Shown here: in pieces, positions 13,047-39,615 of the stretch | Numbering within the stretch: position 1 is the first letter of the stretch | Layout of the letters: each line of letters starts with the position of its first letter | From: Candidatus Hydrogenedentota bacterium | GTDB lineage: Bacteria; Hydrogenedentota; Hydrogenedentia; Hydrogenedentales; CAILVY01 | Length of the DNA: 64,000 bases | Assembly: GCA_903837785.1 (NCBI GenBank) | Contig: CAILVY010000362.1 | Location: forward strand, 31,616 to 95,615 | Direction of reading: 5' to 3' | Translations under genes and position numbers: made by a program | The notes under the pieces: model-generated | The model's database searches: none | The model's input: the letters and a program-made list of their open reading frames with translations, nothing else | What the model was told of the DNA's origin: nothing

Positions 13047-16000
13047 CTAGGCGTGCAGCTTCCGTCTGCGCGCCAGCATCAGCATGCTGGCCACCGAGGC
13101 AATGAGCAGGACGTCGCCCCAGGGCTGGCCGCCAGTCACACTGGCTGCCGCCGCCTTTTGAGCAACGTAGGTGCCCGTCGCCGTGGTGGTTTGATCCGCA
13201 GTGATCGTGACCGTCTGGTTGACCGGCGTGGTCCAAGGCTTGCCTTGTCCTCCGAAGCATCCGAAGAACGGCGCTTCCTGAGAAATGGCCTTGAATTCGA
13301 GCGTGTGCTGGCCAACCGCGAGACCCGAGAGCGTCATCCCGCTGCTCATCCAGGCGCCGCCATCGACCCGCCACTTCGCGCCATCTTCCCGGGCATCCGC
13401 GGGTTCGATGGTCACCATCAGCGATCCGGATTGCTCGCCTTCACCCTCGCCTTCGCCTTCGCCTTCGCCTTCCGCCGCGACCGCCGCGCCACCGCAGGAA
13501 CCGTCCGTAATGACAGTCACCTCGTTTGCCTCGATCTCGGGGACGTCCGTCGACGCTGCTTCGGCGTCCAACGGATCATCCGTGAGGTTCAGCAACGGGC
13601 TCAAGCCGACACAGTCGCTGTGCATGTCGAGCAAGTTCTCCGCCACACTGTCTTCGGCCACCTGCAAGGCGCCGAACTTTGTGGCCGCTGCCAGCCCGGC
13701 AATGCTGCTGACCTGGTTCTGCGCCAGGTTCAGCCAGAACATCTCGCCGGAGGGCAGGTTCGCCGGAACCGCGGACATGCCATTTCCAGAGAGGTCCAGT
13801 TGGCGCAGCCGGGATTCGGCCGACAACACCGGCAGATCGCTGATGTTATTGCCCGCCAAGCCAACGTATTCGAGGCTCGGAAGGTCCGCGAGCACCGACG
13901 CGTCAGATACGCCCGCGCTCTCCGCGCGCAACTGGATCAGGCCCGGCAACCCGGCCACCGAGCTGAGAACGCTGAACTTGCCGCCGCGCAGGATGAGATA
14001 CAGAAGACTCTGCGCACGGCCCGCCAGGAAGCTCATGTCGCTCACCTGGTTCGAAGAAACGCCCAACGCCTGCAGCGCCGGCCACGTGTCGAGCATGCTC
14101 TGGATGTTGCCCGACGGATTCCCGTCCACCCGGAGCATGGTGAGTGAATCGATGGCCGCCAGCGGGCTCAGGTCGCTGATCTGGTTGTCCGCGATGAACA
14201 AGGCTTCCAGCGGCAGTGCACCGATGCCTGCGACCGAGGTCAACTGGTTCCGGTTCAGCGCCAGGGCTTTCAGGCTCGTCAGCCCCACAATGTCCGACAG
14301 GGTCGCCAGGTTCACATTGTGCGCTTCGAGCTCTTCCAGCTTGTTCAGCGCCCCGACTCCGGGAAGCCCCGGAAGCGGATTGTCCGACACGTCCAGATGC
14401 TCGAGCGTGATCATGCCCGCGATTTCCGTGAACGACGTGATCGCATTGCCTTCCACTTCGAGTTCGGCCAGGGCCGGCAGGTTCGCCGCGCCGCCGATCG
14501 ATGTCAGCAAGTTGCTGCGAACTTCCAGTGTCGTCAGCTTGGTCAACGCGCTCATATCCGGCAGGGTGGTCAGCGCATTGTAGCTGGCTTCCAGGTACTC
14601 GAGGTTCACGAAGTTCTCAATCCCCGACAGATCGCTGATCCCGCTGTGGGACAGGTCAAGCGACGTGATGGGTTCCACGTCCGTATCGAGGATATCCCCG
14701 TCCAGGATGTTCAGGGCGATCCGCACGGACGCCTCGAAATTCCAGTCCGCGAACGTGATGGGCTGGCCGGTCGCCGCCGAGGCGCTGACCGCGTCCGCTC
14801 GCGCCGACTTGACCGGCAGGGTAGTGGCAATCAGCACGTTCGTGGGTGCGCTTGTGCCGTCGAGGTTGTACGCAACGATTCGGTACATGTACGTCGTGTT
14901 CAATTTCAACGGCGTGTTCGTGAACGTGACGGTGTTTGCCGGCAGGCGGGCAATCGTCGCCCACACGCCCAGCAGGCTCACCCGCTGCACATAGAACGCC
15001 GTCTCATTCAGCGAGTTGTCCTTCCACGACATCGTGATCGACGTGCCGAGAACCGCCGTCTGCACCAGGTTCGACGGAGCCGCCGCCAGTTGGCCGCGCG
15101 TTGTGACTTTGGCCGCGGGCGAGGCCAGGGAGGGGCCGGCGCCGTTGCTCGCCGTTACGTGGTAGTAATAGAGGGTCTTCGGAAGCGGCGTCGTATCCGT
15201 GAACGTGGTCGTGTTCGCAGGCACCACAAACGGCGTCAGGCCCAGGGTGAACAGGGCGTCGGTGGCCCGCGTCACGGTGAAGCCCGTCTCGTTGTCGGAG
15301 CGATCAAGCCAGGTGATCGTCACCGAGGGCGGAGTCGGACTGAGGGGCGCCGCCGTGGCCGTCAGGTTCGAAGGCGGCGCCGGCACGGCATCCGTGATGG
15401 CAATGGCCGGGGAGGGGGCAGCACTGCCCACCCCGTTAATCGACACGACGCGATAACTGTACGTTGTGCCCGCCACCGCAGTCAGATCGCTGTACGTCGT
15501 CACGTTCGAGGCGACCGTCGCCAAGGCGGTGTACGCTCCGGCCACGCCGGCCACGACCGTCGCCCGTTCGATCCGGAAGCTCGTCTGGGTGCCGGCCGGC
15601 ACCGTCCACGCCAGATTGATCTGTGTCGCGCTGAACAACGTGGCGGTCACACTGGTCACGGCGGGAGGCAGCACCATCAGCACCAGCGGGCGCATCATGT
15701 CTGCTTCTTCGTGACCGAGGATGTGGCAGTGGTAAACATACTCCCACTCGAAATTGTACAGTGGGTTGGGATTGAGCACCGGGTCAATCACGCTGCCCAA
15801 AGGGCCGGTCGTTGGCATCATCGGGTCCAGCGGCCGGATACTGTCGGGAACGGCGAAGGGCAGGATGGGCACCATCGGACGGAACGCAACGACGACGTTC
15901 TCCATCGGGTTCATCCGGAGGGTTTCCTTCCAGCCTTGGTCCCGTGGGTCGACCGGAAGCACGTTGCCGGCCCAGTCAATCCGGTTGATCACCTGCACTT

Positions 16001-18158
16001 CAAACAGGTGGAAGTGCAACGGATGATTGTCCACACAATTGTTCACAACCATCCAGACTTGGGGTTGGCCGGGAATGAGGAATTCTTGCGGCGCTTCTGT
16101 GTACGCATGCGGCGTGATCGTCCAACCCATGACCGGATCGTACACCCCATTCCCAAGCAGGACCGTGCCGCGTCCATAGGCGTCGGTCCCCATCTCAATG
16201 GTCTTCACCTCGATCGGCAGGGTGAGCGCGCCCACGGGCAACGAAACGGTCGTGCCGTTGGCGGTGATGCCCGGGGCGACCAGCGGCGCCGGTTGCCCGG
16301 CCGTAAAGGCCGCAGGCAACTGCGTCTGCAAGGCCGCCAGCGTCGTCGCGTGGTCCGGATATAGCGCCGAATCTGCGGGCAGAGTCCCCGTCGGGGCGAT
16401 GACGCGGAACTGCATCAGGGTGCGCATGTTCGGCCCCATACCTGGCAAGGTCGAGGGCGCGCCGCCTGCCGGCGTCTGATCGAGATTGCCCGTATAGTAG
16501 TCATAGCGCGGGTCGCCCGCCGGCGTCGGGGCCGGGCAATCGTTGTACAGGATCAGGTTCTCGCCGGGCACGCATGCCGAAAAATCGACGATGATGTCGG
16601 CGCGTTCCGCCGGCATCAGGATCATGTTGCTCTGATTGACCAGGCCCATCGTGGGACTACCCACGGCCGTGTCCCAGCCAATCTGCACCGGCGGGTTGTT
16701 CAGTTCCACCGGCGCCGGCAGGAAGCCCGCCTCGTTGGCGATCTGAATGAACGCCGGGGGGATCGGCGCCACTAAGTCGGCTTCACCCGCCAGTGGGTCT
16801 GCAATCACGTGTGTGACGGGGTCCGGCGCCGCCATGGATTGCGCCCAATACAACTGCAGGTTGAACACGCGATCATTGCAGGCATTGAGCAGCCGGAACC
16901 GGTAGCGGCGCGGCTCCACATTCAGGAAGGGATAGGCCGTGCCATTGATGACCGGCGTGTCCATGAACGCTTCGGGTACGAAGGAAATGGCTGGCAGTGG
17001 GAGGGCGGCCGGCATCGGAGGCCACATACCGGGAGCGTAGTCCCAGCGGCCCATCGGATTGAGCAGGCCGGTGGCAAACTGGTTCGGCTGGAAGACGTGC
17101 GGGAACCACAGGTTGCCCATTCCGCCCCAATTGACCGTGTCCCACAGGGGATCGTTCGCGGCCACCGACACGGGATCGGGCACGAAAGTCTTGTCTTGGA
17201 GAATGAGAGGAATTTGAACGGAAGGAATCAAGCCTGCGGTGACCAGGCCTTGCTCGGTCGGGTCTTGGACCAGATACCCGGCGGCCACGCCGGCATATAC
17301 GTTCAGCCGGGTGATGCCCCACGCATGATCGTGATAGAACATCAATCGCGCACTCTGCTGGTTCGTCCAGTAGTACGTGCTCGCGCCGGGACCCGGATCA
17401 TTCGTCGCGCCAACCGTGCCGGCCGGCACTATCGCATGCGTCACGGGATCAAACCACATGTCCGGAACATTCTGACAGGCCACGCCCTTCGGATACGAGG
17501 TCACCTCCCCAGCGGGGGTGACCCACTGATGCGGTGTGCCGTCGCTGATCCACGGCGAGAACCCGCCGTGCAGGTGGACATCCGAACGGTTCTGCGTGAA
17601 CATCTCCATCATGCCGGGCATGCCCGGCATCGGGACGGGCCCCATGCCGGCGCCCATGAGCGTCGTGTCCACCGGGATGAACAAGTTGCCTGCCGCGCCC
17701 GTCGGAAGCATGTTCACGAACTTGACGCGCACCGCACGGTCCTTCTGGGCGATGATGAGCGGGCCTAGGTAATGCGCCGGGGCGGGCGCAACCGTGTTCG
17801 CGCCCAAGGCGTCCGTACCCAGGTTCAACTGCACGTAGCCGCGCAGCTTCGTCCCGGTCACCGGCAGGTCCGAGTGCATCCTTTCGGTGTACTGGACCAG
17901 GCCGATCTCGTAGTAGTCCGATCCCGGAAACGTAATCGTATCCGGGGTCGCGACCGGGATGAACTGCCCCAGGTTGTTCGCACCCGCAGCCCCAAGGCCC
18001 GGCAGTGAATCCACGAACTTCCGCAGGGGCGGACTGTTCAGATAATTGGGCAACGCCAGATTCGGCGCCGGAGGCACCTGGCCTGCCGCTTCAAAGAGTC
18101 CCCAGGAAAAGACAATCACCATTAAACACAACATCACACCACACTTTTTCGGAAACAT
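13047..18158 (-). CDS. Multicopper oxidase fused to FN3 domains, leucine-rich repeats and C-terminal sorting segment
   Basis: 1703 residues with a signal peptide at ~1-27 and GGGAGG 8 nt before the ATG. Residues ~30-825 are a CotA/bilirubin-oxidase-like multicopper oxidase with all four copper motifs: HLHGG, FYHDHA, HPLHFHLF, and HCHILGHEEADMM. Residues ~826-1110 are about three fibronectin type III domains. From ~1134 there is an internalin-type cap (ITFADWNFEASVRIAL) and roughly 15 leucine-rich repeats to ~1500. A GEGEGE linker at ~1562, a PEGA-like beta domain, and a C-terminal GDVLLIASVASMLML helix followed by ARRRK complete it. It should oxidise a substrate and reduce oxygen at the cell surface, with the LRR part binding a partner; substrate and anchoring route are inferred. 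Laccases are usually ~500-600 residues, so the extension is exceptional. Confidence 0.9.
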   Translation of the reverse strand: MFPKKCGVMLCLMVIVFSWGLFEAAGQVPPAPNLALPNYLNSPPLRKFVDSLPGLGAAGANNLGQFIPVATPDTITFPGSDYYEIGLVQYTERMHSDLPVTGTKLRGYVQLNLGTDALGANTVAPAPAHYLGPLIIAQKDRAVRVKFVNMLPTGAAGNLFIPVDTTLMGAGMGPVPMPGMPGMMEMFTQNRSDVHLHGGFSPWISDGTPHQWVTPAGEVTSYPKGVACQNVPDMWFDPVTHAIVPAGTVGATNDPGPGASTYYWTNQQSARLMFYHDHAWGITRLNVYAGVAAGYLVQDPTEQGLVTAGLIPSVQIPLILQDKTFVPDPVSVAANDPLWDTVNWGGMGNLWFPHVFQPNQFATGLLNPMGRWDYAPGMWPPMPAALPLPAISFVPEAFMDTPVINGTAYPFLNVEPRRYRFRLLNACNDRVFNLQLYWAQSMAAPDPVTHVIADPLAGEADLVAPIPPAFIQIANEAGFLPAPVELNNPPVQIGWDTAVGSPTMGLVNQSNMILMPAERADIIVDFSACVPGENLILYNDCPAPTPAGDPRYDYYTGNLDQTPAGGAPSTLPGMGPNMRTLMQFRVIAPTGTLPADSALYPDHATTLAALQTQLPAAFTAGQPAPLVAPGITANGTTVSLPVGALTLPIEVKTIEMGTDAYGRGTVLLGNGVYDPVMGWTITPHAYTEAPQEFLIPGQPQVWMVVNNCVDNHPLHFHLFEVQVINRIDWAGNVLPVDPRDQGWKETLRMNPMENVVVAFRPMVPILPFAVPDSIRPLDPMMPTTGPLGSVIDPVLNPNPLYNFEWEYVYHCHILGHEEADMMRPLVLMVLPPAVTSVTATLFSATQINLAWTVPAGTQTSFRIERATVVAGVAGAYTALATVASNVTTYSDLTAVAGTTYSYRVVSINGVGSAAPSPAIAITDAVPAPPSNLTATAAPLSPTPPSVTITWLDRSDNETGFTVTRATDALFTLGLTPFVVPANTTTFTDTTPLPKTLYYYHVTASNGAGPSLASPAAKVTTRGQLAAAPSNLVQTAVLGTSITMSWKDNSLNETAFYVQRVSLLGVWATIARLPANTVTFTNTPLKLNTTYMYRIVAYNLDGTSAPTNVLIATTLPVKSARADAVSASAATGQPITFADWNFEASVRIALNILDGDILDTDVEPITSLDLSHSGISDLSGIENFVNLEYLEASYNALTTLPDMSALTKLTTLEVRSNLLTSIGGAANLPALAELEVEGNAITSFTEIAGMITLEHLDVSDNPLPGLPGVGALNKLEELEAHNVNLATLSDIVGLTSLKALALNRNQLTSVAGIGALPLEALFIADNQISDLSPLAAIDSLTMLRVDGNPSGNIQSMLDTWPALQALGVSSNQVSDMSFLAGRAQSLLYLILRGGKFSVLSSVAGLPGLIQLRAESAGVSDASVLADLPSLEYVGLAGNNISDLPVLSAESRLRQLDLSGNGMSAVPANLPSGEMFWLNLAQNQVSSIAGLAAATKFGALQVAEDSVAENLLDMHSDCVGLSPLLNLTDDPLDAEAASTDVPEIEANEVTVITDGSCGGAAVAAEGEGEGEGEGEGEQSGSLMVTIEPADAREDGAKWRVDGGAWMSSGMTLSGLAVGQHTLEFKAISQEAPFFGCFGGQGKPWTTPVNQTVTITADQTTTATGTYVAQKAAAASVTGGQPWGDVLLIASVASMLMLARRRKLHA
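13434..13472. repeat. Short tandem repeat encoding Gly-Glu linker
   Basis: About six copies of a CGCCTT-type hexamer (minus strand GGCGAA/GGCGAG) encode the GEGEGEGEGEGE linker between the LRR region and the terminal PEGA-like domain of the multicopper oxidase. Such hexamers can change copy number in frame. Confidence 0.85.
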
Positions 18159-24945: not shown

Positions 24946-25267
24946 AGAAACACCTTTCCCAAAAAGTGTCGCATTTTAGCACGTTGGACCGCGCGGATCA
25001 GCCCTCTTCTGGCCCGACGCCAAGACCGTCGTCCTGGGCACGACTTTTCCGGTGATCAAGGAGAAGAACGATCATGCGGCTGATTCCTGCCGTTCCGAGC
25101 ATCCAACCATGCATCTTGCAGAATGCCGGCGAAGGATTTCGCGATACCCGGCGGCTGCGCCGTTTGACCTTTCGTCGCCGAATTTTGCCTACACACGGAG
25201 TTGTGACTTCACAGAAGGTGCGTTATTATGTAAAAGGTGAAAAACTGGGCAAGGGGTGAAGTGTGCC
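24946..25267. other. Divergent control region, symporter / sensor kinase
   Basis: This 322-bp non-coding region lies between two divergent starts. The kinase side holds a good promoter (25201-25229, separate entry). On the symporter side, TAAAAT (minus strand, 24973-24978) is a possible -10 box without a good -35 partner. Confidence 0.55.
25201..25229 (+). promoter_or_regulatory. Sigma-70-type promoter of the sensor kinase, with overlapping palindrome
   Basis: TTGTGA (25201-25206) and TATTAT (25224-25229) are spaced by 17 bp, ~40 bp before the kinase ATG. The -35 box overlaps TGTGA-CT-TCACA (25202-25213), an inverted repeat placed where a repressor would block polymerase. Confidence 0.55.
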
Positions 25268-28200
25268 ATGACAAGGCGGTACAAGCAGTCCAAGAAGGCC
25301 CGTCCGCACAATGAATCGGCCACTTCTCAGTGTTCAGAGGCGTCAGCCGATGGCCCGAGGCCGCACGTGCCCCGCCTGGCCCGCCTCCGGCAGCACACGC
25401 CTTTGGGATGGATGACGCGTTACGGCCTGGCAATCCTGGCGGTGGCGCTTGCCTTCGGAATGCGGCTCCTCTTGACCGCCTGGGTCGGCCCAGGCTTGCC
25501 TCCCTACATCACCTTCTATCCCGCGGTGATGACCGCGGCCTTGTTGGCCGGTTTCGGGCCGGGATTAGCGGCCACGGCCTTGACGGGCGTTGTTGTGGGG
25601 TGTTGGATTCTGCCGCCATTTGGGCAATTCGGTTTCGAGTCGCCGGTGGATCGCCTGGGGATGCTGATCTTCGTGCTGATGGGCGTGTTCATGAGCGTCG
25701 TCGCCGGTCTCTACCGGCGCAACCGCGACAAGGCCGCGGACTTTGACCGCGAAGCGGCGCTCCGCGAAACGCAGGAGGCGTTGCGCACGCAAGCGGAACA
25801 GATTGACCCCGTTCGCGCGGATATCATTGCGCGTGAGATGCTGCGCGTCATGAGCGGCCGTGGCGGCGTGGCCGCGGCGCCCGCCGAAACCTCGGACAAG
25901 ACCCTGCGCCACGTTCCGTCCGTAGCGGGCGCGGCCGTGGCGGCGGTGGGCTTTCTAGTTCTGACCGGTTGGCTCTTTGGCGTGGAATCGTTCAAGAGCA
26001 TCCTTCCGGGCCTGGCCACGATGAAGGCCAATACCGCCCTGTGCTTCCTGCTCTTGGGAGCAGCATTGGCGCTCCGGGAATTCAGCGCCGTGCGGCTGGC
26101 CTGCACGGGATTCGTGCTGGCTATCGCCGGACTCACGATGTTTGAATATCTCTCCGGGATGGACCTTCTCCTGGATCAGCTCCTCTTCCGCGACACAAGA
26201 GATGTGCACACCATCTTTCCGGGCCGGATGGTTGAGGCCACCGCTCTGGGATTCCTGTTGAGCGGCACCTCGCTGCTCTTGCTGAGAGTGCGCGGCAACG
26301 CCGCGCTGCGCGTGCAACAGGCGCTGGCCGTGGGCGCCGCCATGATCGGCCTGGTCGCGGTCCTGGGCTACGTCTATGACGCCAGGCAGTTGTATCGTTT
26401 CGCCGGCTATTCGAGCATGGCCCTGCACACCGCGGTTTCACTGATTCTCTTCGCAGCCGGACTGCTCTTCGCACGGGATGGCGGGTTGCGGACGGCGTTG
26501 AGCATGCCCAAGGCCGGCGCTCAACTCCTGCGCCGGCTGCTGCCTGCGGTGCTCCTGGCGCCGGCGGCATTGGGCTGGCTCTTCCTCATGGGAGTCCGTC
26601 TGGGCATCTATGGCCATGGCATGGATGCCGTTCTCTTCGCCCTCGGGATGATGGTGTCGCTCACCGCATTCGTGTTCTGGGCGGCGCATGCGCTCAATCT
26701 TACGGACAAAGTGCGCCGCGACGCCGAAGTGCAACTGCGCAATCTGGCCGAGCTGATAAACCACGCCCAGGAGCCGCTGATTGTTCGCGAACCGGGCGGC
26801 CTCATCCGCGCATGGAACCACGGCGCCGAGGCGCTCTATGGCTGGCCGGCCGCCGAGGTGCTGGGACAGAGCATGCACCGCCTGCTCCGCACGGAAGGCC
26901 TGCCGCCCGACGAACTGGATTCGCACCTGGAAATGACGGGGCATTGGGAAGGCGAACTCGTCCACACCACTCGCGACAGCCGTCGTGTAATCGTGGAGAG
27001 CCGTCAGACCGCTCACCGCATCGATGACGGCCAGGTGTTTATCCTGGAAAGCAACCGGGACATCACCGAGCGTAAGCGCGCCGGGGACGCATTGCGCGAG
27101 AGTGAGATCTTCAAGGCGGCCATTCTGAACTCCCTGTCGGCGCATATCGCCGTGCTCGACCGCGAGGGCCAGGTCATCAGCGTCAATGAACCGTGGACGC
27201 GCTTCGCCCTCGAAAACACGCCCGCAGGCGTGTCTGCTCCGGCCGTGGGCGCCGGCTATCTGGAGGTTTGCCGCCGTGCCGCAGAAGCCCGGGATCCGCT
27301 GGCTCGTGAAGCGCTCGAAGGCATCCTCAGCGTATTGCGCGGAGAATCCCCCCACTTTGCGATGGAGTACCCCTGTCATGCGCCCGCCGAACAGCGCTGG
27401 TTCCTCATGACGGTGACGCCGATCGCGGCGCCGGGAGGCGCCGTTGTCACCCATCTCGACATCACCCGCCGGAAACAGGCCGAGGCAGCGCTGCTGGCAA
27501 GCGAGAACCGCCTGCGGCGGCTCTACGATGCCGGGCTCATCGGGGTCATTTACTGGAACATGAATGGCGAAATCACCGACGCCAATGACAAGTTCCTCGA
27601 TATGGTTGGCTACGACCGCGCGGACTTGGCCGCAGGCCGAATCCGGTGGAGCCAGATGACACCCCCGGAGTACCGGCACCTCGACGAGCACTCCGTCGTC
27701 GAAATGAAGACTACCGGCGCCAACCAGAAGCCCTTCGAGAAGGAATACTTACGCAAAGACGGTTCGCGCATTCCGGTCCTCGTTGCCGGCGTCATGCTGG
27801 ACGAAGAACGTTACAATGGAGCGGCCTTCGTGCTGGATATCACCGCGCGCAAACTGGCCGAAAAGGCCCTCAATCAGAGCGAAGAGCGATTCCGGCTCTT
27901 CATGGACAACAGTCCGGCCATCGCGTGGATCAAAGACGAAAACGGCCGCTACACGTATCTGAACAAAACCCATCAGGAGCGATTTGGTATCCGGCCCGAA
28001 GACTGGCTCGGGAAGACAGACGCCGAACTCTGGCCGCCCGAGATTGCCGCCGAGATGCGCAAGAACGATTTGGCCGTCCTGGCCGCCGGCCATGCCATCG
28101 AGGTGTCCGAAAAGACCCTGGACGCAACCGGGGCTTCCGTCCACTGGCTGAATTCGAAATTCCCCTTCGCAGACCTCGCCGGCAACCGCTTCGTGGCGGG

Positions 28201-31200
28201 TATTGGCCTGGACATGACTATGCGTTTGCACGCCGAAAAACAACTCTCGGAGACGATGCAACGGCTCCAAGCCTTGATGCAGGCCGTTCCGGTGGGAATC
28301 AGTTTCTCCAACGATACCACGTGCCGTGAGATCACGGGAAACCCGGCCGTGCTCGCCCAATTCGAAGTGTCGGCCCGGGACAACCTGTCTGCCTCTGCGC
28401 CTGACCTCGCCGCGTCCGGCCGGCAAGTGCGGTTCTTTGCCGACGGACGCCGCATCCCGGATGCCGAACTGCCCCTCCAACGCGCGGTGGCGGAAAACCG
28501 CGAAATCGCCGCTATGGAACTGGAGATCGTGCTGCCCAACGGCCGGCGCTGGTTTGCCGACGCTTCTGGCGCGCCCGTGCGCGACGCGCAAGGGAACGTT
28601 GTCGGGGGACTTGCCGTGACAGTGGACATCACCCGACGCAAGTTGACGGAGGACACCCTGCGTTTCCTGCTGGCGCAGGACAGGAGTTCCGGCGAAGATT
28701 TCTTCCGGGCCCTGGCGCAGTTTCTGTCGCACAAACTCGACATGGATGTCGTGTGTATTGACCGCCTGCAATCCGACCTCCTGGCCGCCGAAACCTTGGC
28801 GGTCTATCACGACGGAAACTTCGCGGATAATGTGGCCTATACACTCAAGGACACCCCCTGCGGCGATGTCGTGGAGAACTCCGTCTGCTGCATCGCGCGC
28901 GAGGTACGCCAACTCTTTCCCAAAGACGCCGTGCTCCAGGAGATGCTCGCCGAGAGTTATGTCGGAACCGTCCTCTGGAGTTCGCAGGGCGAGCCCATCG
29001 GCCTGATCGCCGTCATCGGGCGCAAACCGCTTTCAAACCCCGAGCTCGCGACGTCGATTCTGCAACTCGTCGCCGTGCGCGCCGCCGGTGAATTGGAGCG
29101 ACGCCAGGCCGAAGCCGCCCTGCGGGAGAGCGAAGAACGCCTGCGTCTGCTCGGGGACAATCTCCCGAAGAGCGCCGTATATCAGTACGTCCATGAGTTG
29201 GACGGCAGCGTCCGGTTCCTCTACTTCAGTGCGGGCATCGAGCGCCTCAACGGCGTCACCGCGGCCGACGTCTTGCGCGACCCCGGCACGCTGCACCGGC
29301 AGATCCCGCAGGACTACCTTGCGCGCCTCGTTGAAGCGGAAGCCCGCAGCAAGCGCGAGTTGTCCGATTTCGACATGGAATTGCCGATGAAACGCCCCGA
29401 TGGCGAATGGCGTTGGATGCACCTGCACTCACGGCCCCGCCGCCTGCCCGATGGCCGCACCGTCTGGGACGGGGTGCAAATCGACATTACCCAGCGGAAA
29501 CACATGGACAGCGAACTGGAGCGCATGAAGACCATCCTTGAAGAAGGCCAACGGCTCGCGCACTTCGGAAGTTGGGAATATGTGGCCGAGACAAGGGAAA
29601 CGATTTGGTCCGAGGAAGAACTCCGCATCTATGGATTCGACCCGGCCGGGCCATCGCCCGATTATCAGAACATGCTCAGGAACTGCATCCACCCGGAGGA
29701 CGCCGAACGGCTCGACCAGGTCTTTGGAGAGGCCCTTCGAAATGGCTCCGTCTACGAAATGGAGCACCGCATCGTGCGCCCCGACGGCACCGTCCGCCTC
29801 GTCTACGATCTCGCACAACCCCACTTCGATGAACAGGGGAAACTGCTCAAGTATGTGGGCGCGACGCTCGACATCACCGAGCGCAGGCAAGCCGAACGGG
29901 CATTGCGTGAGAGCGAACAGCGCGTACGACGGAAACTGGAGAGCGTGCTCTCGCCCGAAGGCGACCTGAGCGTGCTGGAATTGCCCGACCTCGTGGACGC
30001 CGAGGCGCTTCAGCGCCTCATGGAAGACTTCTATGCGGTGGCATGCATTCCAATGAGCCTGATGGATGCCCAGGGACGCATCCTCGTCGGCGTCGGCTGG
30101 CAGGACATCTGCACCCGTTTCCACCGCGTCCATCCGGAAACATGCCGCCATTGCCTGGAAAGCGACCTGCAGCTGGCGGGCGGCCTGGCCCCGGGCGAGC
30201 ACCGCCTGTACAGGTGCAAGAACAACATGTGGGACATGGCCACCCCCATCGTCGTGGCCGGCCAGCATCTGGGAAACATATTCAGCGGACAGTTCTTCTT
30301 CGATGACGAGACGCCGGACCGCGGGCTCTTCCGGGCCCAGGCCCGACAGTACGGCTTTGACGAGAACGACTACCTGGCGGCCCTGGACCGCGTGCCCAAA
30401 CTCAGCCGCGATACTGTCGAGCGCGGCGTGAAATTCCTCCTCACACTGGCCGGTATGATTTCCCAACTCGGCTACAGCAACGTCAAGCTTGCCCGCTTGC
30501 TGGCCGAACGCGACCGGCTTATGGCGTCCCTGCGCGAGACCGAACAGCGCTTCCGGCTGGCATTGCGCAATGCGCCGGTCTCGGTCGCAGTACAGGATCG
30601 CGAGCTCCGCTACTTGTGGGCCTATAACCAGCGCACGGCGCGGCCCGAGGACATCGTCGGGCACGTCGACGGCGATATCTTCACGCCGGAGGAGGCGGCG
30701 CGGGTCACGGCGATTAAGCAGCGTGTGCTTGAGGAAGGTGTCGAAATGCGCGAACAGATGTGGTTCCAGCGTCCCGGCGGCCCGATCTTCCTGGACCTCT
30801 GCTGGGAACCTGTTCGCGACGATGCCGGCCATGTGATCGGCGTGGCCTCCGCGACGGTTGATCTGACGCCCATCAAGAAGGCCGAGGAGGCGTTGCGCGC
30901 GAGCCAGCGGGCGCTGCAGGAGTCCCACGATCAACTGGAGCAACGGGTCCAGGAACGCACGCAGGAACTTGTGCGCGTCAACGAACTGCTCCTCAGCCAG
31001 ATAGAACAGCACGGAAGGACGCTCGATGCGCTGCGCGAGAGCGCGGCACGCCTGGCCGAAGCCCAGCGCAGGGCCCACCTCGGCGATTGGGATTGGGATT
31101 ATGCCGCAAACGCGGCCACGTGGTCCGACGAGACGTTCCGAATCCTCGGCTTTGAAGCGCAGGCCGTGGCGCCCTCGTACGAACTCTTCCTCCAGCGCGT

Positions 31201-32209
31201 CTATCCGGACGATCGCCAACACGTTGACGCGTGCCTGAACCCGTCGCGGGCCGCCATCGAGGCCAACGCCGTCGAGTGCCGCATCGTCTTGCCCGGCAGC
31301 GAGGTGCGGCACGTGTCCGTCCAAAGCGAAGTCATCCTGGACACCAGGGGCCAGCCCGGGCGCATGGCCGGCACGATCATGGATATCACTGAACAAGTCC
31401 GCGCCCGGGAAGAGGCGAAGATCCGCCAACAGCAACTTGTCCAGGCCGACAAGATGGTTTCACTCGGCATTCTCGTGGCCGGTGTCGCCCACGAAATCAA
31501 CAACCCGAACCACGCCATCATGTCCAACGCGACCCTGCTCAACGATGCCTGGACGAGCATCCGTCCGCTGTTGGAACGCACGTACAAGGACTTCGGCGAT
31601 TTTGTAGTGGGCGGCTTCGACTACTCAGACGCCCGCGACGAACTCCCCAAGATGTTCAGGGACATCGTGGCCGCCGCGCGGCGCATCGAGGCGATTGTCA
31701 CCGAACTGCGTGATTTCGCCCGCTACACCCCGGAAGAGACCATGGCCCCCGTGGAAGTGCCCCCGGTCATCGAGTCCGCCACAGTGCTCTTGTCCAACAT
31801 GATCAAGAAATCCACGGACCACTTCTCCGTCATAACCGACGGGGAGCTGCCGCCGGTCTTTGCCAACCGCCAGCGCATCGAGCAGGTCCTGATCAACCTC
31901 ATCCAGAACGCGTGCCAGTCCCTCGCCGATCGCGAGAAAAGCGTGGCGGTGAAGGCTTCCTACTCGCCCGTAACCGACGCCGTCATCATCGAAGTTGCGG
32001 ACCAGGGCGGCGGGATCTCCGAGGAGAACCTCAAGCATCTCGGGGACCCCTTCTTCACAACCAAACGCGGCTTTGGCGGGACCGGCCTCGGGCTCTGGGT
32101 TTCCTTCAACATCGTCCACGAGCACGGGGGCACGCTCGAATTCCACTCCCAACCCGGAGAAGGCACCCGCGCCGTCTTGACCCTGCCTGCCAGCCGGCGG
32201 CACGATTGA
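25268..32209 (+). CDS. Giant membrane sensor histidine kinase (DUF4118-like, 9 PAS, GAF, PocR)
   Basis: 2313 residues from the ATG at 25268 (AGGGG 11 nt upstream; a GTG at 25256 in frame is the alternative). N-terminal hydrophobic blocks: a KdpD/DUF4118-like segment (~45-140) and a multi-helix region (~220-480). Then five PAS repeats (~490-1125), a GAF-like domain (~1130-1280), two PAS (~1290-1540), a PocR-type domain with CRHC and CKNNMWDMATP (~1557-1737), a PAS, a coiled coil (~1875-1935), and a ninth PAS. The transmitter has VAHEINNPNH (H box, ~2072), NLIQNACQSL (N), DQGGGIS (G1), FFTTK (F), and GGTGLGL (G2). It should autophosphorylate on His; no receiver domain or response regulator gene is adjacent, so the partner is elsewhere. 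The many sensors suggest integration of several small-molecule or redox inputs. Confidence 0.93.
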   Translation: MTRRYKQSKKARPHNESATSQCSEASADGPRPHVPRLARLRQHTPLGWMTRYGLAILAVALAFGMRLLLTAWVGPGLPPYITFYPAVMTAALLAGFGPGLAATALTGVVVGCWILPPFGQFGFESPVDRLGMLIFVLMGVFMSVVAGLYRRNRDKAADFDREAALRETQEALRTQAEQIDPVRADIIAREMLRVMSGRGGVAAAPAETSDKTLRHVPSVAGAAVAAVGFLVLTGWLFGVESFKSILPGLATMKANTALCFLLLGAALALREFSAVRLACTGFVLAIAGLTMFEYLSGMDLLLDQLLFRDTRDVHTIFPGRMVEATALGFLLSGTSLLLLRVRGNAALRVQQALAVGAAMIGLVAVLGYVYDARQLYRFAGYSSMALHTAVSLILFAAGLLFARDGGLRTALSMPKAGAQLLRRLLPAVLLAPAALGWLFLMGVRLGIYGHGMDAVLFALGMMVSLTAFVFWAAHALNLTDKVRRDAEVQLRNLAELINHAQEPLIVREPGGLIRAWNHGAEALYGWPAAEVLGQSMHRLLRTEGLPPDELDSHLEMTGHWEGELVHTTRDSRRVIVESRQTAHRIDDGQVFILESNRDITERKRAGDALRESEIFKAAILNSLSAHIAVLDREGQVISVNEPWTRFALENTPAGVSAPAVGAGYLEVCRRAAEARDPLAREALEGILSVLRGESPHFAMEYPCHAPAEQRWFLMTVTPIAAPGGAVVTHLDITRRKQAEAALLASENRLRRLYDAGLIGVIYWNMNGEITDANDKFLDMVGYDRADLAAGRIRWSQMTPPEYRHLDEHSVVEMKTTGANQKPFEKEYLRKDGSRIPVLVAGVMLDEERYNGAAFVLDITARKLAEKALNQSEERFRLFMDNSPAIAWIKDENGRYTYLNKTHQERFGIRPEDWLGKTDAELWPPEIAAEMRKNDLAVLAAGHAIEVSEKTLDATGASVHWLNSKFPFADLAGNRFVAGIGLDMTMRLHAEKQLSETMQRLQALMQAVPVGISFSNDTTCREITGNPAVLAQFEVSARDNLSASAPDLAASGRQVRFFADGRRIPDAELPLQRAVAENREIAAMELEIVLPNGRRWFADASGAPVRDAQGNVVGGLAVTVDITRRKLTEDTLRFLLAQDRSSGEDFFRALAQFLSHKLDMDVVCIDRLQSDLLAAETLAVYHDGNFADNVAYTLKDTPCGDVVENSVCCIAREVRQLFPKDAVLQEMLAESYVGTVLWSSQGEPIGLIAVIGRKPLSNPELATSILQLVAVRAAGELERRQAEAALRESEERLRLLGDNLPKSAVYQYVHELDGSVRFLYFSAGIERLNGVTAADVLRDPGTLHRQIPQDYLARLVEAEARSKRELSDFDMELPMKRPDGEWRWMHLHSRPRRLPDGRTVWDGVQIDITQRKHMDSELERMKTILEEGQRLAHFGSWEYVAETRETIWSEEELRIYGFDPAGPSPDYQNMLRNCIHPEDAERLDQVFGEALRNGSVYEMEHRIVRPDGTVRLVYDLAQPHFDEQGKLLKYVGATLDITERRQAERALRESEQRVRRKLESVLSPEGDLSVLELPDLVDAEALQRLMEDFYAVACIPMSLMDAQGRILVGVGWQDICTRFHRVHPETCRHCLESDLQLAGGLAPGEHRLYRCKNNMWDMATPIVVAGQHLGNIFSGQFFFDDETPDRGLFRAQARQYGFDENDYLAALDRVPKLSRDTVERGVKFLLTLAGMISQLGYSNVKLARLLAERDRLMASLRETEQRFRLALRNAPVSVAVQDRELRYLWAYNQRTARPEDIVGHVDGDIFTPEEAARVTAIKQRVLEEGVEMREQMWFQRPGGPIFLDLCWEPVRDDAGHVIGVASATVDLTPIKKAEEALRASQRALQESHDQLEQRVQERTQELVRVNELLLSQIEQHGRTLDALRESAARLAEAQRRAHLGDWDWDYAANAATWSDETFRILGFEAQAVAPSYELFLQRVYPDDRQHVDACLNPSRAAIEANAVECRIVLPGSEVRHVSVQSEVILDTRGQPGRMAGTIMDITEQVRAREEAKIRQQQLVQADKMVSLGILVAGVAHEINNPNHAIMSNATLLNDAWTSIRPLLERTYKDFGDFVVGGFDYSDARDELPKMFRDIVAAARRIEAIVTELRDFARYTPEETMAPVEVPPVIESATVLLSNMIKKSTDHFSVITDGELPPVFANRQRIEQVLINLIQNACQSLADREKSVAVKASYSPVTDAVIIEVADQGGGISEENLKHLGDPFFTTKRGFGGTGLGLWVSFNIVHEHGGTLEFHSQPGEGTRAVLTLPASRRHD

Positions 32210-33610: not shown

Positions 33611-35938
33611 TCAGCGCCGGCTCTCGATGCCGTCAATATACCCCAAGGCTCCCGTGGGGATGTTGGCGGCATTCCCTTCGTCCGTATCGAGGTGCATCGC
33701 GAGCTTGTAGTCCGGACTGACGCGCACCAGCACGTCGCCGAAAAGGAGATCGCGGTCACTCTCCACACGGACCCGGACAACGTCTTTGTTTCTGAGTCCG
33801 AAATGCAGCGCGTCCTCCGGCATCATGTGGATATGCCGCAACGCGCAGATCACCCCGTGACTCAGTGTTATCGAACCGCTGGGTCCTTCCATTGTAATCC
33901 CGGGCGTCCCTTCAAGTGCCCCGGACTCTCGGATGGGCGGCTGCACGCCCAGCTTGAACTGCTCCGTCATGGCGATCTCCACCTGGGACTCGTTCCGGAC
34001 CGGTCCCAGGATGCGGACATTGTCGATCCGGCCGCGCGGGCCAATCAGGTTCACTTTCTCCTTGCACGCGAACTGGCCCGGCTGAGAAAGCATCTGATGA
34101 ACCGTCAGCGCGTAACCCCGGCCGAAGAGCGCCTCAACATGCTCCTGGGTCAAATGCACGTGATGCGCCGAGATCTCGATCGGGACCGGCATCGGCGCCT
34201 GGGTCCGCAGGATATCCGCGACATACTGCCGTTCGATCGCACGCAGGGTTTCCCGCGCGATCATGCGCTCCTCGTCCGTCGGCACCACGAGCACGCGCAC
34301 CGCGGACCCGTCCGCGCTGATGTCCCAGATCTCCTCGAAGCCGCGCGCTTCGCGGTTCTTCGCCTCGTCGATCCGGATGCCCATGAACCCCAGGCCCTGG
34401 CACGCAAGGCTGCGCGCCCACACGCTCCCCTGGCCGATGCCGCCCGTGAAGACCAGCGCGTCCAGGCCGCCCATGGCCGCCCCGTACGCGCCCACATATT
34501 TGCGAATCCGATAGCAGAACGTCTTGATCGCCTGCAGCGCCCGCGCATTCCCGGCGTCGGCCGCCGATTCGATCTCGCGCATGTCGTTCGAAACGCCCGA
34601 AAGCCCCTTCAGCCCTCCGTCCTTGTTGATGAGCCGATTCAGTTGCTCCGCGTCCAGATGCTCCGTGCGCATGAGGTGAACCAGGATGGCGGGGTCTATG
34701 TCGCCGCAGCGGCTGCCCATGATGAGCCCCTCTGTCGGTGTCAGCCCCATTGATGTGTCGACAGATCGCCCATGATCAATCGCGCAGACAGACGCGCCGT
34801 TGCCCAGATGGCAGACGATCGTCTCCAGCTCGTTGTAGGGACGCTTCAGAAACTCGGCCGCCTTCAGCGAAACGTACTTGTGCGAAATGCCGTGAAACCC
34901 GTAGCGGCGTATCCCCTTCTGCTCGAAGTACTCATAGGGCAGCCCGTACAAATACGCGTACGGAGGCATGACCTGATGGAATGCCGTGTCGAACACCGCC
35001 ACGTGCGGCACCTCAGGCAGGAGTCGTTGGGCCTCGCGGATGCCGCACAAATTCGCGGGATTGTGCAGCGGCGCCAAGGCCGCGGCCTTCTCGATCTCCT
35101 GGACAACCTCGTCCGTGAGGATCGCCTGATGGCTGTACATGCTGCCGCCGTGCACCACCCGGTGGCCCACCGCCGAAACCTCGGACAGCGACCGCAGAAC
35201 ACCGCTGCCCGGCGCGGTAAGCGCGGCAATCATGGCCGCAAATGCTTCCGCGAAACCCGCGTTCGGCAAGGGCTGCGCCGATCTTCCTTTGCCGGATTCA
35301 TGCGTGTGCGTGGTCCCCTCCGCGCCTATCCGTTCCACGGCGCCGTGCGCATTGCCGCCCTCATTCCATGTGTCGAAGAGGTCGTACTTGAGCGAGGACG
35401 ACCCGCAGTTGATCACGAGCAGCTTCATGGGCTTGTCGGTTCTCAATTTGAACCCGTACGGATCGTCGCTGCGCTTGATCGCCGACGCGGCCACATCCGG
35501 CATCGTGCCGGCCGAGGCGGTCTTCTGAAGGCGTTCCACGATAGTCTTGGAGAGGCACGAAATGGCCGGGAGATTCGTGGCGATCATCGTCGCGAACAAC
35601 GGCCCCTGAATCTGAAGCACTTGACACGGCGTGAGCGCCACCACATCCGCCACCGTCTTGTTCCCCGTCATCATCTCCATCTCGCCGAAGATCATGCCGG
35701 GCTCCAGGATGATCAGTTGATGCTTGTCGCCGCCGTCGTCTGTCACAGACGCTTCCGCCGTCCCATCCAGCAGCACCCCCAGGAACCGGCCCTCCTCGCC
35801 GAACTCGATGATGGACTCGTTTGACTCATATGTGACGACGCTCGACGCTCCGGCCAGCGAAACAAGCGCGGCATCCGTGAACGCATGGAAGAGCGCAACT
35901 TGTGTCTTGAGGTAGTGTGGAATGGCAGTCTGGTCCAT
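33611..35938 (-). CDS. Cyclic-nucleotide-binding / acetate kinase / phosphotransacylase (PduL) fusion
   Basis: 775 residues from the ATG at 35938 (GGGAGAG 6 nt upstream); the ORF start at 36058 would run into the preceding gene. Residues ~10-150 form a CRP-type cNMP-binding beta barrel (FGEEGRFLGVLLDGTAEA, FGEMEMMTG). Residues 171-~570 are a complete acetate kinase: NCGSSSLKYDLFD, GHRVVHGG, DTAFHQ, RRYGFHGISHKYV, HLGNGAS, GSRCGDIDP, FTGGIGQ, and PTDEERMIARE. Residues ~585-775 are PduL phosphate acyltransferase (SAHHVHL, VRNESQVE, GSITLSHGVICALRHIHM, KLAMHLDTDEGNAA). It should convert acyl-CoA plus phosphate to acyl phosphate and then to acid plus ATP in one chain. Allosteric control by cAMP/cGMP or anchoring is inferred. 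No SD precedes the inner AckA methionine, so separate translation is unlikely. Confidence 0.93.
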   Translation of the reverse strand: MDQTAIPHYLKTQVALFHAFTDAALVSLAGASSVVTYESNESIIEFGEEGRFLGVLLDGTAEASVTDDGGDKHQLIILEPGMIFGEMEMMTGNKTVADVVALTPCQVLQIQGPLFATMIATNLPAISCLSKTIVERLQKTASAGTMPDVAASAIKRSDDPYGFKLRTDKPMKLLVINCGSSSLKYDLFDTWNEGGNAHGAVERIGAEGTTHTHESGKGRSAQPLPNAGFAEAFAAMIAALTAPGSGVLRSLSEVSAVGHRVVHGGSMYSHQAILTDEVVQEIEKAAALAPLHNPANLCGIREAQRLLPEVPHVAVFDTAFHQVMPPYAYLYGLPYEYFEQKGIRRYGFHGISHKYVSLKAAEFLKRPYNELETIVCHLGNGASVCAIDHGRSVDTSMGLTPTEGLIMGSRCGDIDPAILVHLMRTEHLDAEQLNRLINKDGGLKGLSGVSNDMREIESAADAGNARALQAIKTFCYRIRKYVGAYGAAMGGLDALVFTGGIGQGSVWARSLACQGLGFMGIRIDEAKNREARGFEEIWDISADGSAVRVLVVPTDEERMIARETLRAIERQYVADILRTQAPMPVPIEISAHHVHLTQEHVEALFGRGYALTVHQMLSQPGQFACKEKVNLIGPRGRIDNVRILGPVRNESQVEIAMTEQFKLGVQPPIRESGALEGTPGITMEGPSGSITLSHGVICALRHIHMMPEDALHFGLRNKDVVRVRVESDRDLLFGDVLVRVSPDYKLAMHLDTDEGNAANIPTGALGYIDGIESRR

Positions 35939-35990
35939 GCAAGGCTCTCCCATCGTAACGGCATTCTGGCGCTTCTGGTGGCGCATCATG

Positions 35991-37748
35991 CTACAGGGTT
36001 GGGCGCGCCACGGCAAGCCTGCATGCGGCGCGGCGCAAGCCTTCAAAGAACAACACACTCAGAGCGAACTGCACCGCAAACGTGATACCCGCTGATATGG
36101 CGGGATTGAACCCCCACGGAGCAAGGCCCGCCTTGCTTGCCAATTGGATGTTCACGGAACCGATCGCCAAGAGCAGAAACAAGGCCGCAAAGAGAGGGAC
36201 AGCGGAGGCCAGCACAGCGCCCAACACTCTTCCCTGCCACGATCTTGACGAGAAGTTGACGAGGGCGCCGCATGACGCGAGGTGAAACGTGGAAAGCACC
36301 GAGAGAGGATAGAACCTCACGGGATTCGCGGTCACAGTCACTGCGTCAAGACGGAACAGCACATAGGCGCCATGGAACGAGGCAAGCGCCATTCCAGCGA
36401 TTACCGCGAGCACGATGGACTGCACCTTGGCCCCGCTCTTGCCCATCCTGACGAGTGCGATGGCCAACCCGAGACCGGCGAGCGCGGCAAGGATGAAATG
36501 CGTCCCTGAATCGGGCGCGTACAGCGTCAACAGGGCAGCATCCAGAGAATCCAGGATTGTGTCACTGCATTTCCAGAGTGCCGGCGCACGTTCCGCAAGG
36601 CTGCACACGAAATCCCGGCCGTCACTGCCGTAGAGCACGCACTTGTCCTCGCCGAAGTTGGCAATCTGAAGGCGCGAATTGCTGAACACGTCATCCTGCG
36701 AAACCGAGGTGACGCCGATCACGCTGACGAAACCGTAGCCGGCAGCGCCGGCAATGCGCAACGGGACGATTCCCGAGGATGTGGGATGAACGGAGATGAT
36801 GCGCGACTTGCCTTCGATGCGGTCGCCAGTGATCGTGTAGGGCGGCTCTGGGCGAAAGGCAATGCGCGGATCGCCCAGGAGGCAATACCCCGCGACTTGC
36901 GCGTTTCCGCGGAGGCCTTCCCTCAATACGGATACGGCCGTGCCCACGGGAAATCCCGGCCACGTGAGCGAAAACGGCGCCTCTCCCTTCATTCCCCAGC
37001 CCGACATCGGACTGATGAAGTACCCCGCATAGGCGGCCGCGCCCCGCTCAATGAACTCAAGGGCAATGCTGCGCCCTTCCCAGATGCGCAGGGTCTGGCA
37101 GCCCCGCGAGTCTGCTATCAAGGGCCGCAGCGGGGGCACGTCCCGGCTCTCAATAGCGCTACCCGCTTCATCAAGTGTGAACTGCACAGCGCTGCCGTGC
37201 CCGTTGAAGACAAAGTAGTCCGTGGATTGCAGACGGGCGAGAACTGCCCCCTTGTTGAGCGTGCTTTCTTCGCGACTGTCGTCCCTCAGATGAATAATCC
37301 CGGCGCGTCTATGGCTCGGCCGATTCTGCGTATTGACGATAAGGACATCCTGTCCTTTGACGCCTTGGGCGCGGCGATACAGTTCCCGGCTCGTTTCCAG
37401 CGACCGGCCCGTGATGAGCCCCACCGCAATCGAACGGCCGCCTTCACGGAGTTGGGCGCCAAACTCGGCCAGACGCTTGTCGGACAGGCGTTCCGGCGCC
37501 ACCACCCAGAGCAGAAAGAGTGGCGATGGCGCCAAGGCATCCTCCAAGGTTTCCGCCAGAAGGAGCCGCTCCTCTTGGGCGATCTCCCGCGCCAATGCAG
37601 TGTAGGGATCATCGGGATACGCCAGAACCACGGTCCGAAGAACGGGAAATGCCTGTGGAGCGGCTGAGGAAGGACCCTGGCCTCTGGTAGCATCTGCCGC
37701 GCTTGCCGCGACGGCTGCGATGATGAACCCCGACAAGAAGCTGCACAT
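35991..37748 (-). CDS. Membrane-anchored gingipain-like (C25, caspase-fold) cysteine peptidase
   Basis: 585 residues from the ATG at 37748 (GGAAGAGG upstream), with a signal peptide at ~1-22. The extracytoplasmic domain (~40-330) has the clan CD dyad: His184 in VFNGHGS and Cys217 in ADSRGCQT. The 33-residue spacing equals that of His211/Cys244 which I recall for gingipain RgpB. C25-like features follow: IERGAAAYAGYF, SGWG, and YCLLGDPRIAF. A beta-rich stretch then leads to about five transmembrane segments from ~420 to the end, which is not usual for secreted gingipains. The AckA-PduL fusion follows 52 bp downstream on the same strand, so they may be co-transcribed. Cleavage specificity (Arg/Lys or other) is unknown. 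Confidence 0.72.
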   Translation of the reverse strand: MCSFLSGFIIAAVAASAADATRGQGPSSAAPQAFPVLRTVVLAYPDDPYTALAREIAQEERLLLAETLEDALAPSPLFLLWVVAPERLSDKRLAEFGAQLREGGRSIAVGLITGRSLETSRELYRRAQGVKGQDVLIVNTQNRPSHRRAGIIHLRDDSREESTLNKGAVLARLQSTDYFVFNGHGSAVQFTLDEAGSAIESRDVPPLRPLIADSRGCQTLRIWEGRSIALEFIERGAAAYAGYFISPMSGWGMKGEAPFSLTWPGFPVGTAVSVLREGLRGNAQVAGYCLLGDPRIAFRPEPPYTITGDRIEGKSRIISVHPTSSGIVPLRIAGAAGYGFVSVIGVTSVSQDDVFSNSRLQIANFGEDKCVLYGSDGRDFVCSLAERAPALWKCSDTILDSLDAALLTLYAPDSGTHFILAALAGLGLAIALVRMGKSGAKVQSIVLAVIAGMALASFHGAYVLFRLDAVTVTANPVRFYPLSVLSTFHLASCGALVNFSSRSWQGRVLGAVLASAVPLFAALFLLLAIGSVNIQLASKAGLAPWGFNPAISAGITFAVQFALSVLFFEGLRRAACRLAVARPTL

Positions 37749-37939
37749 CCGTCCTCTTCCTTGTCCGGCTTGCCCGCCGGCCATCTTCCGGCCCGGCGTC
37801 ATGCTAATAGAATGAGCGGCGCACGCACAACAGGCAACAAGAGAACAAGGAATCGGCTATGTTTCCGTTCCGCCCGACTGCCCTGCCCCTGTTGCGCTTG
37901 GAGTTTGAATCCAGGCGCCCTCCTGACGCAACGGCCTCG

Positions 37940-37968
37940 TTGTCGCTTCGTTGCCGCAATGCTATACT
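37940..37968 (+). promoter_or_regulatory. Sigma-70-type promoter of metallophosphoesterase gene
   Basis: TTGTCG (37940-37945) and TATACT (37963-37968) with a 17-bp spacer, 33 bp before the ATG at 38002. It is the best promoter match in the 253-bp region between this gene and the divergent C25 peptidase. Confidence 0.55.
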
Positions 37969-38001
37969 CCAAGTGACATCCGCCATGCGGAACGGGGTGG
38001 C

Positions 38002-39615
38002 ATGAAGCCAAAGGAACGAACAGCGGCGGGGGGGAGGCGGTCAAGCGCCGGGCTCATATTCGTCTTGCTCCACGCCGCGGCCGTGTTGAATCTCGCGGTC
38101 TTTTCACTTGTCCTCTGGCTCCTCAGACCGTTCTGGTCGCCAATCGACGATTCCCTGGCCGCCTTGCTGGGGAGGAGTCTCCCCTGGACCTCCATGGTCT
38201 TCGCCTTTGCGGCAGTCCTGTCTTGCCTGTTGGCTGCCCTCTTGAGGCGATACGCAGGCGCGCTGGTTGCCGGTGAGCGCCGCCTCACGATCTTTGTCTT
38301 GGCTCCCGCCGCCGCGGTTGTCGCACTCATCGGCGATGTCTTGCTGTTCAAGCTGTTTGAAGAGCTCGAAAAAGACAGCTTGCTCCTCCCACTTCGCGCG
38401 CTCGAATTCGGTCCACATCTCCTCATCTTCGCGGGGCTCGCGCTGCTCATGCTCATTCTGCCGGATCTCGCCTGCTGGAAGTCGCGGCGTGTACGCGGCG
38501 CTGCCTTGGGCATCCTGACAGGCCTGCTCATCATTGCATTGTCCAGGCCATGGCCGCCCCGTATTGTCGCGGGCCCTTGGCTGGAATTCTCGGGAAACGG
38601 AGGCATAACTGTTTCCTGGATGACCGACCGGCCCACCCTGGGCTGGGTCGAGTATGGGCCCGGCTTGTGCCAACGTGCCCAGTCATTCCAGTCCGGCCTC
38701 AACGACGCTGACCGCCGGGTGCATCGCGTCTCCCTGACGGATCTTCCGGCGGGAACCAGGATTCCGTATCGCGTCGTTTCTCGGGACGTCCGTGCCATCG
38801 AACCCATGGGGGTCCGGCTGGGGACGACGACCGCCAGTGCTCAGCATGCGCTCGGCATTCCCGGCAATGATTCGGAGGAAGTCTCCTTCGTGCTCTTCAG
38901 CGACCTTCACGAGAGTTTCCATTTACTGCCGGATTTGCTGAACTCTGTTGATTTGACCCACTGCGACTTTGTTGTATTCAACGGCGATACGCTTTTTCAG
39001 GTCCACAACGAGTATCAGGTGCGCCGCTTCCTGAAGACCGTCTCCAGACAGTTCGCGGCCGACCTGCCCTTCATTTTCGTCCGGGGCAATCATGACGCCA
39101 CCGGCGCGTTTGCCCGGCGCCTGCCGGACTATATCGGCTTCGCCGGGAGCCCCTTCATGGGATGTCTGCGGGTCGGGCCAGTCGCACTCCTCGTCCTGGA
39201 CACAGGCAGCGATCAGTACAGGGTTGATGCAGAGACGCCTGCCATGATGGATTTCCCCGGTTGGCTGGAGGAACAGAAGCGAACGCTGAACCCCCTCCTA
39301 CTGAGCAACGAGTGGACCGAGGCCCCCTTTCGAGTTCTCAGTTGTCACATTCCTGTCGAAGCCGGGGATCCCAATTGGCAGCCCCTGATGACGGAAGGGG
39401 GGCTCGACCTGGAATTGGCGGCGCATATTCACACAACAAGGTTAACCCCGGGAAACGGCCGTCCAGCGGTCTTGACTGCCAGCGGAGAATCCTGGTTCAA
39501 CCCCGGGTCATATCCCGCCTACCTGGTGACGGCGACCCGCCGGAAGATTGTCGTGGAGAAACTGTTGCCCGGTGGAAAGAGAGAGGGGTTGTGCGAAATC
39601 GCTCCCGCGAAGTGA
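38002..39615 (+). CDS. Membrane-anchored calcineurin-like metallophosphoesterase
   Basis: 537 residues from the ATG at 38002 (GGGGTGG upstream; the ORF start at 37951 lies upstream of the predicted -10). Four hydrophobic segments (~18-190) come first. A small beta domain like the purple acid phosphatase N-terminal domain follows (LEFSGNGGITVSWMTDRP, ~200-285), then the phosphoesterase: SDLHE, NGDTLF, VRGNHD, CHIP, and AHIH where GHxH is usual. These supply the two-metal site. The catalytic part should be outside the membrane. It diverges from the C25 peptidase gene. Substrate unknown; related proteins hydrolyse phosphomonoesters or diesters. Confidence 0.85.
   Translation: MKPKERTAAGGRRSSAGLIFVLLHAAAVLNLAVFSLVLWLLRPFWSPIDDSLAALLGRSLPWTSMVFAFAAVLSCLLAALLRRYAGALVAGERRLTIFVLAPAAAVVALIGDVLLFKLFEELEKDSLLLPLRALEFGPHLLIFAGLALLMLILPDLACWKSRRVRGAALGILTGLLIIALSRPWPPRIVAGPWLEFSGNGGITVSWMTDRPTLGWVEYGPGLCQRAQSFQSGLNDADRRVHRVSLTDLPAGTRIPYRVVSRDVRAIEPMGVRLGTTTASAQHALGIPGNDSEEVSFVLFSDLHESFHLLPDLLNSVDLTHCDFVVFNGDTLFQVHNEYQVRRFLKTVSRQFAADLPFIFVRGNHDATGAFARRLPDYIGFAGSPFMGCLRVGPVALLVLDTGSDQYRVDAETPAMMDFPGWLEEQKRTLNPLLLSNEWTEAPFRVLSCHIPVEAGDPNWQPLMTEGGLDLELAAHIHTTRLTPGNGRPAVLTASGESWFNPGSYPAYLVTATRRKIVVEKLLPGGKREGLCEIAPAK

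Follow-up and report, generated by a model that had tools for sequence, protein, structure and literature searches.

Gingipain-type peptidases are known as secreted or surface enzymes, and a literature search yielded no polytopic peptidase of family C25 among the papers listed. In RgpB, a caspase-type subdomain, whose strands 3 and 4 carry the His and Cys at their ends, precedes an Ig-like domain, and the enzyme carries a prodomain of about 229 residues (PMC4357240). The PF01364 proteins of the phylum Hydrogenedentota (L002-L004, L023-L051) are mostly large, their open frames spanning roughly 900-1,400 aa, and are clear members of the family, unlike the protein described here. We read the latter, with a probability of roughly 0.6, as a compact C25-like cysteine peptidase of clan CD that is exported via Sec, anchored in the inner membrane and facing the periplasm.

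The window, i.e., the whole stretch of 64,000 nucleotides of Candidatus Hydrogenedentota DNA that was analysed, carries on its minus strand an open reading frame at 35991-37802 (603 aa), or at 35991-37748 (585 aa) with the start chosen in the original prediction. ATG 37748 is the better start because AAGGAAGAGGACGG stands before it; such a preceding site is absent at the upstream ATG 37802. According to codon statistics, coding bias is found only in the gene's own frame when compared with the other five; it extends over the catalytic part and, at a weak level, over the membrane part. The open reading frame 35991-37748 is a real gene. Unless stated otherwise, residues are numbered from ATG 37748. 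The gene and its N-terminal part comprise:

35991-37748, minus strand: gene of the putative C25-like membrane peptidase, 585 aa (603 aa from the in-frame upstream ATG 37802), based on the open reading frame and codon bias
37683-37748, minus strand: predicted export signal or N-terminal hydrophobic segment MCSFLSGFIIAAVAASAADATR, mean KD 1.66
37323-37646, minus strand: N-terminal alpha/beta region, which by position only may correspond to the N-terminal subdomain of C25, with low-confidence alternation of strands and helices

The features of the presumed catalytic part, including a core placed by motif register, a matrix scan and the alignment with a distant relative (L110, see below), are:

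36849-37355, minus strand: putative catalytic C25-like (caspase-type) core
37197-37199, minus strand: proposed catalytic His184 (His202 of 603), aligned with the C25 His
37098-37100, minus strand: proposed nucleophile Cys217 (Cys235 of 603), aligned with the C25 Cys
36996-36998, minus strand: Trp251 (Trp269 of 603), 34 residues past the Cys, at the position of the SxxSYW Trp
36867-36875, minus strand: GDP motif (YCLLGDPRIAF), from the sequence

A His-Gly and Cys dyad spaced as in gingipain R and a GDP-R/L motif had been predicted, and both can be read from the translation: His184 and Cys217 are 33 residues apart, as are His211 and Cys244 of RgpB (PMC9559808), and the GDP motif continues as GDPRI. 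The order of the two residues and the layout of a strand with HG and a strand with Cys also resemble RgpB (C25, clan CD), and so may a division of the core into two parts, with a linker behind it at the place of the RgpB Ig-like domain (PMC4357240). A spacing of exactly 33 is shared by 13 PF01364 proteins of the phylum, and the distance of 34 residues from Cys to Trp, without gaps, is that of most C25 proteins of the phylum with a spacing of 33. The window protein has GHGS, the Cys at +33, SxxS(Y)W, and LLGDP in the same register as the PF01364 proteins, and judging by this register it is probably related to C25. The GDP motif is not exclusive to C25, being also found in CHAT-type proteins of the phylum. 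In three genomes of the phylum, we observed proteins (L072, L073, and L119) in which an FHA-like domain precedes a CHAT-like part with YGDP at its end, these domains being named by eye.

Searched as an ordered set (HG, a hydrophobic strand with Cys at +28 to +44, and a hydrophobic stretch with GDP at +95 to +170), the motifs came up in one of 200,000 shuffles, a figure which overstates the case because the pattern was written after the protein had been seen; among 462 other ORFs, the set was confined to true C25 proteins. A gapless matrix built from the 33-spaced C25 proteins yielded equal or higher scores in 42 of 20,000 shuffles and in one of 1,393 decoy ORFs, and its best placement on the window protein fell exactly at the His, with the expected residues in register.

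Searches with whole families gave a different picture. No peptidase match to the window protein was obtained in Pfam, NCBIfam, PADLOC, PHROGs or PDB sequences, and PF01364 gave none at E<=10. A profile of 33 C25 segments from the phylum scored -2.5 bits, with the HG and GDP pieces alone aligned, hhalign against the phylum C25 profile gave P 0.18, and the score of a core-only C25 profile was reached by 29 of 5,000 shuffles. In an ordered-block test, one of 1,000 shuffles reached the score, yet real decoy ORFs score equally high; the C25 block “PDxxxGR” (PDLAVGR) and its neighbouring blocks were absent from the window protein in this test. Compared with RgpB, the core is shorter and lacks the PDxxxGR segment, there is no significant sequence match, and the protein has neither the prodomain of about 229 aa nor the T9SS sorting tail. 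With about 16-20 residues from the signal to the first core strand, a long inhibitory prodomain is absent. Structure prediction with AlphaFold, run without an alignment, produced unusable models (pLDDT 37.7 for the whole protein and 39.6 for the core); the first 100 residues of the core showed an alternation of strands and helices at pLDDT 48-69 per ten-residue block, and the catalytic half was left without a model. Matches obtained by Foldseek with this poor core model (TM about 0.25) were meaningless.

A possible link to the family is L110 (G125:C1), a protein of 452 aa from a distant genome that Pfam assigns to Peptidase_C25 with 34.2 bits at a cut-off of 23. It was among the handful of weak matches of a core-only search in 386 genomes, with an E of 5.5e-4 for the single genome, which is not significant over all 386, and its alignment with the window core runs through His, Cys, GAAA, and GDP. 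With L110 as the query, the window protein outranked all others in a set of 1,809 ORFs, true C25 proteins included. The shuffle z-score of L110 (15) is not proof because this protein was selected for its similarity, and L019, an unrelated ORF chosen likewise as best match, nears the same value (13); L110 carries weight because a rare family appears, in register, among few matches. It keeps a stretch, SDxxY...vDegl.isRfP, which resembles the PD..GR module of C25 and has no counterpart in the window protein, and, unlike the latter, it has no membrane tail. When L110 was used to look for bridging C25 relatives, matches were confined to its N-terminal part, outside the core. Of the weak matches to the whole protein, which also include L007-L010, L012-L014, L017, L018, L021, and L088, those inspected (L005, L006, L011, L015, L016, L019, L020, and L022) looked unrelated or were wrong-frame ORFs.

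Membership of peptidase family C25, which the motifs had been said to indicate, is thus partly supported: the motif register and L110 argue for it, while the missing library and profile matches, the GDP motif in CHAT-type proteins and the absent PDxxxGR block do not. The enzyme assignment depends on few key residues plus a single bridging relative and not on a clear family match. That the motifs match by chance, in an unrelated exported membrane protein of another fold, would agree with the non-significant profile tests and with a regular expression chosen after the protein was seen; we consider this very improbable, given that the matrix scan gives the correct register and that a C25 protein is found among the few best matches.

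The sole other weak Pfam match of the core was separase C50 (E 0.42), at the His motif, and separase C50 is a caspase-fold family too, so that this match also fits the reading as a C25-like peptidase. Because CHAT-like proteins share the layout of HG, Cys, and GDP, we also weighed a place in another clan CD (caspase-fold) group than C25, such as a CHAT-like or lineage-specific family with a peptidase or regulatory role. This pattern is common to the FHA-CHAT-like proteins L072, L073, and L119, an FHA-CHAT-like protein is also among the matches of a profile made from the window core and L110 (E 0.0365), and both the C50 match and the absence of the C25 module “PDxxxGR” point in the same direction. 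We nevertheless hold such an origin to be rather unlikely, since L110, the sole relative that aligns along the entire catalytic core, belongs to C25 by Pfam, and since an exported N-terminus is, to our knowledge, not expected for CHAT or C50 proteins.

Behind the core, the reading as an anchored C25-like peptidase draws on the following features, the linker being placed by position only and the transmembrane (TM) helices by hydropathy and loop charges:

36513-36848, minus strand: linker region of about 110 aa, occupying the place of the RgpB Ig-like domain (PMC4357240)
36441-36497, minus strand: predicted TM helix 1
36360-36416, minus strand: predicted TM helix 2
36258-36314, minus strand: predicted TM helix 3, weak (KD 1.35)
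36162-36218, minus strand: predicted TM helix 4
36045-36101, minus strand: predicted TM helix 5

Four C-terminal helices are clear from hydropathy (peak mean KD 2.12, 1.94, 2.62, and 1.96), and a fifth hydrophobic segment, residues 497-515 in the 603-aa numbering, is weak at KD 1.35. Lys and Arg were counted in the would-be cytoplasmic parts, with two in loop 455-462, two in loop 516-528 (both in the 603-aa numbering) and four at the C-terminus, while the remaining two loops hold two and one. Five helices with the C-terminus inside are suggested because the loop charges fit that topology, and the peptidase tail likely has five helices, the third being the soft one. The five helices originally predicted therefore stand as four clear ones plus one weak segment that the charges favour.

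In analogy to RgpB, we propose a peptidase that is held in the inner membrane and faces the periplasm. Its N-terminal signal would carry the chain across the membrane via Sec, so that the alpha/beta region and the caspase-type core (about residues 35-300 of 585), with the dyad His184/Cys217, would be periplasmic. The linker of about 110 aa would connect this core to about five helices, and the arginine-rich C-terminus would be left in the cytoplasm. Such an enzyme would likely cut proteins of the periplasm or membrane, or else imported peptides, and probably do so at a defined P1 residue. We also considered the more far-reaching idea of a new clan CD family beside C25, its members being integral inner-membrane proteases for processing or sorting, whose catalytic domain would be periplasmic and whose polytopic tail would recognise or present membrane substrates; we regard this idea as tentative and doubtful. 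If the proposal is true, an inner-membrane version would extend C25 and clan CD to membrane-bound processing and would offer an entry point to the role of a caspase-type peptidase at the bacterial inner membrane, although the value is limited by the single known copy.

The polytopic C-terminal tail sets the window protein apart from RgpB, and no ordinary gingipain relative read in the phylum shares its apparent combination of export with anchoring by about five helices. A C-terminal helix bundle was found in none of the true C25 proteins of the phylum that were read, some of whose frames end at the locus edge; one of them, L050, has a short hydrophobic stretch at its end. In four other genomes (G003, G025, G004, and G012), we observed proteins of 317-378 aa (L075, L077, L079, and L080, respectively) with several N-terminal helices followed by a part with HG and CDSG or CKSG. 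For the two of them that were tested, PF01364 stayed below threshold (E 0.0016 and 0.02). Like the window protein, they combine a caspase-type HG and Cys with several membrane helices, but their helices precede the catalytic part, they have no GDP motif, and the spacing in L080 is 35. No sequence relation was found between the window protein and these four, which suggests that attachment to the membrane may have evolved repeatedly.

Homologues of the protein were not detected in 68 genomes of the phylum, one from the same genus included, nor in about 320 further genomes; the gene was thus seen in a single one of about 390 genomes searched. Whole-protein searches of the 68 phylum genomes and of 386 relatives gave only sub-significant matches. 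Pattern scans of the GTDB contigs, which catch close relatives only, revealed no relative whether they started from the protein or from an alignment anchored on C25, and neither did a viral contig scan or tblastn against plasmids. “Orphan” here means that none was detected, because the searches see weak relatives poorly. Orphan status across these phylum and further genomes would fit rapid divergence, and together with the other C25 blocks missing from the core it might suggest a degenerate or inactive caspase-fold domain with a sensing or binding role for the membrane tail. However, the protein retains both dyad residues at the proper spacing, which a degenerate copy would not need, and coding bias is kept in frame, and we judge this reading quite improbable in comparison with an active C25-like peptidase.

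The peptidase gene is flanked by the following genes:

33611-35938, minus strand: fusion of cNMP-binding, acetate kinase and PduL-type phosphotransacylase domains, downstream, from domain matches (ORF 33611-36058, likely start 35938)
37951-39615, plus strand: divergent membrane-anchored metallophosphoesterase, purple acid phosphatase-like, with four N-terminal hydrophobic segments

The ORF of the fusion encodes 815 aa, and GGGAGAG lies just upstream of its likely start. The stop of the peptidase gene (35991) is about 53 bp upstream of this start on the same strand, so that the neighbourhood with a metabolic fusion was predicted correctly, and both genes may be co-transcribed. The fusion itself (33611-36058, minus strand) comprises a complete route from acyl-CoA via acyl phosphate to ATP, with a possible cNMP switch; its position gives no clear hint to the substrate of the peptidase. 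The single promoter-like site found lies at the divergent gene, and one such site is no more than expected by chance.

The contrast originally drawn with secreted gingipains that carry sorting domains needs softening. The window protein is indeed without the T9SS sorting tail TIGR04183, for which a search of the genome with the tail model found no match; the three true PF01364 proteins encoded elsewhere in the same genome lack this tail too, and C25 proteins with dockerins are on record (PMC8542988).

Farther along the plus strand, a fusion of PIG-L and rhamnogalacturonan lyase 11, a BNR protein and a GH106 rhamnosidase are encoded. Two further large genes of the window were noticed: a plus-strand ORF of 2,317 aa (25256-32209) resembles a multi-PAS sensor histidine kinase, its translation having been read by eye, and a minus-strand protein of 1,703 aa (13047-18158) combines part of a multicopper oxidase with fibronectin III and a long leucine-rich repeat. 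A neighbourhood scan of 19 relatives of the metallophosphoesterase found no linked peptidase beside them. A paralogue of this metallophosphoesterase, L084 (G000:C182:12114-13163), lies in a frame of 406 aa and matches only query residues 194-546, with an identity of 46%.
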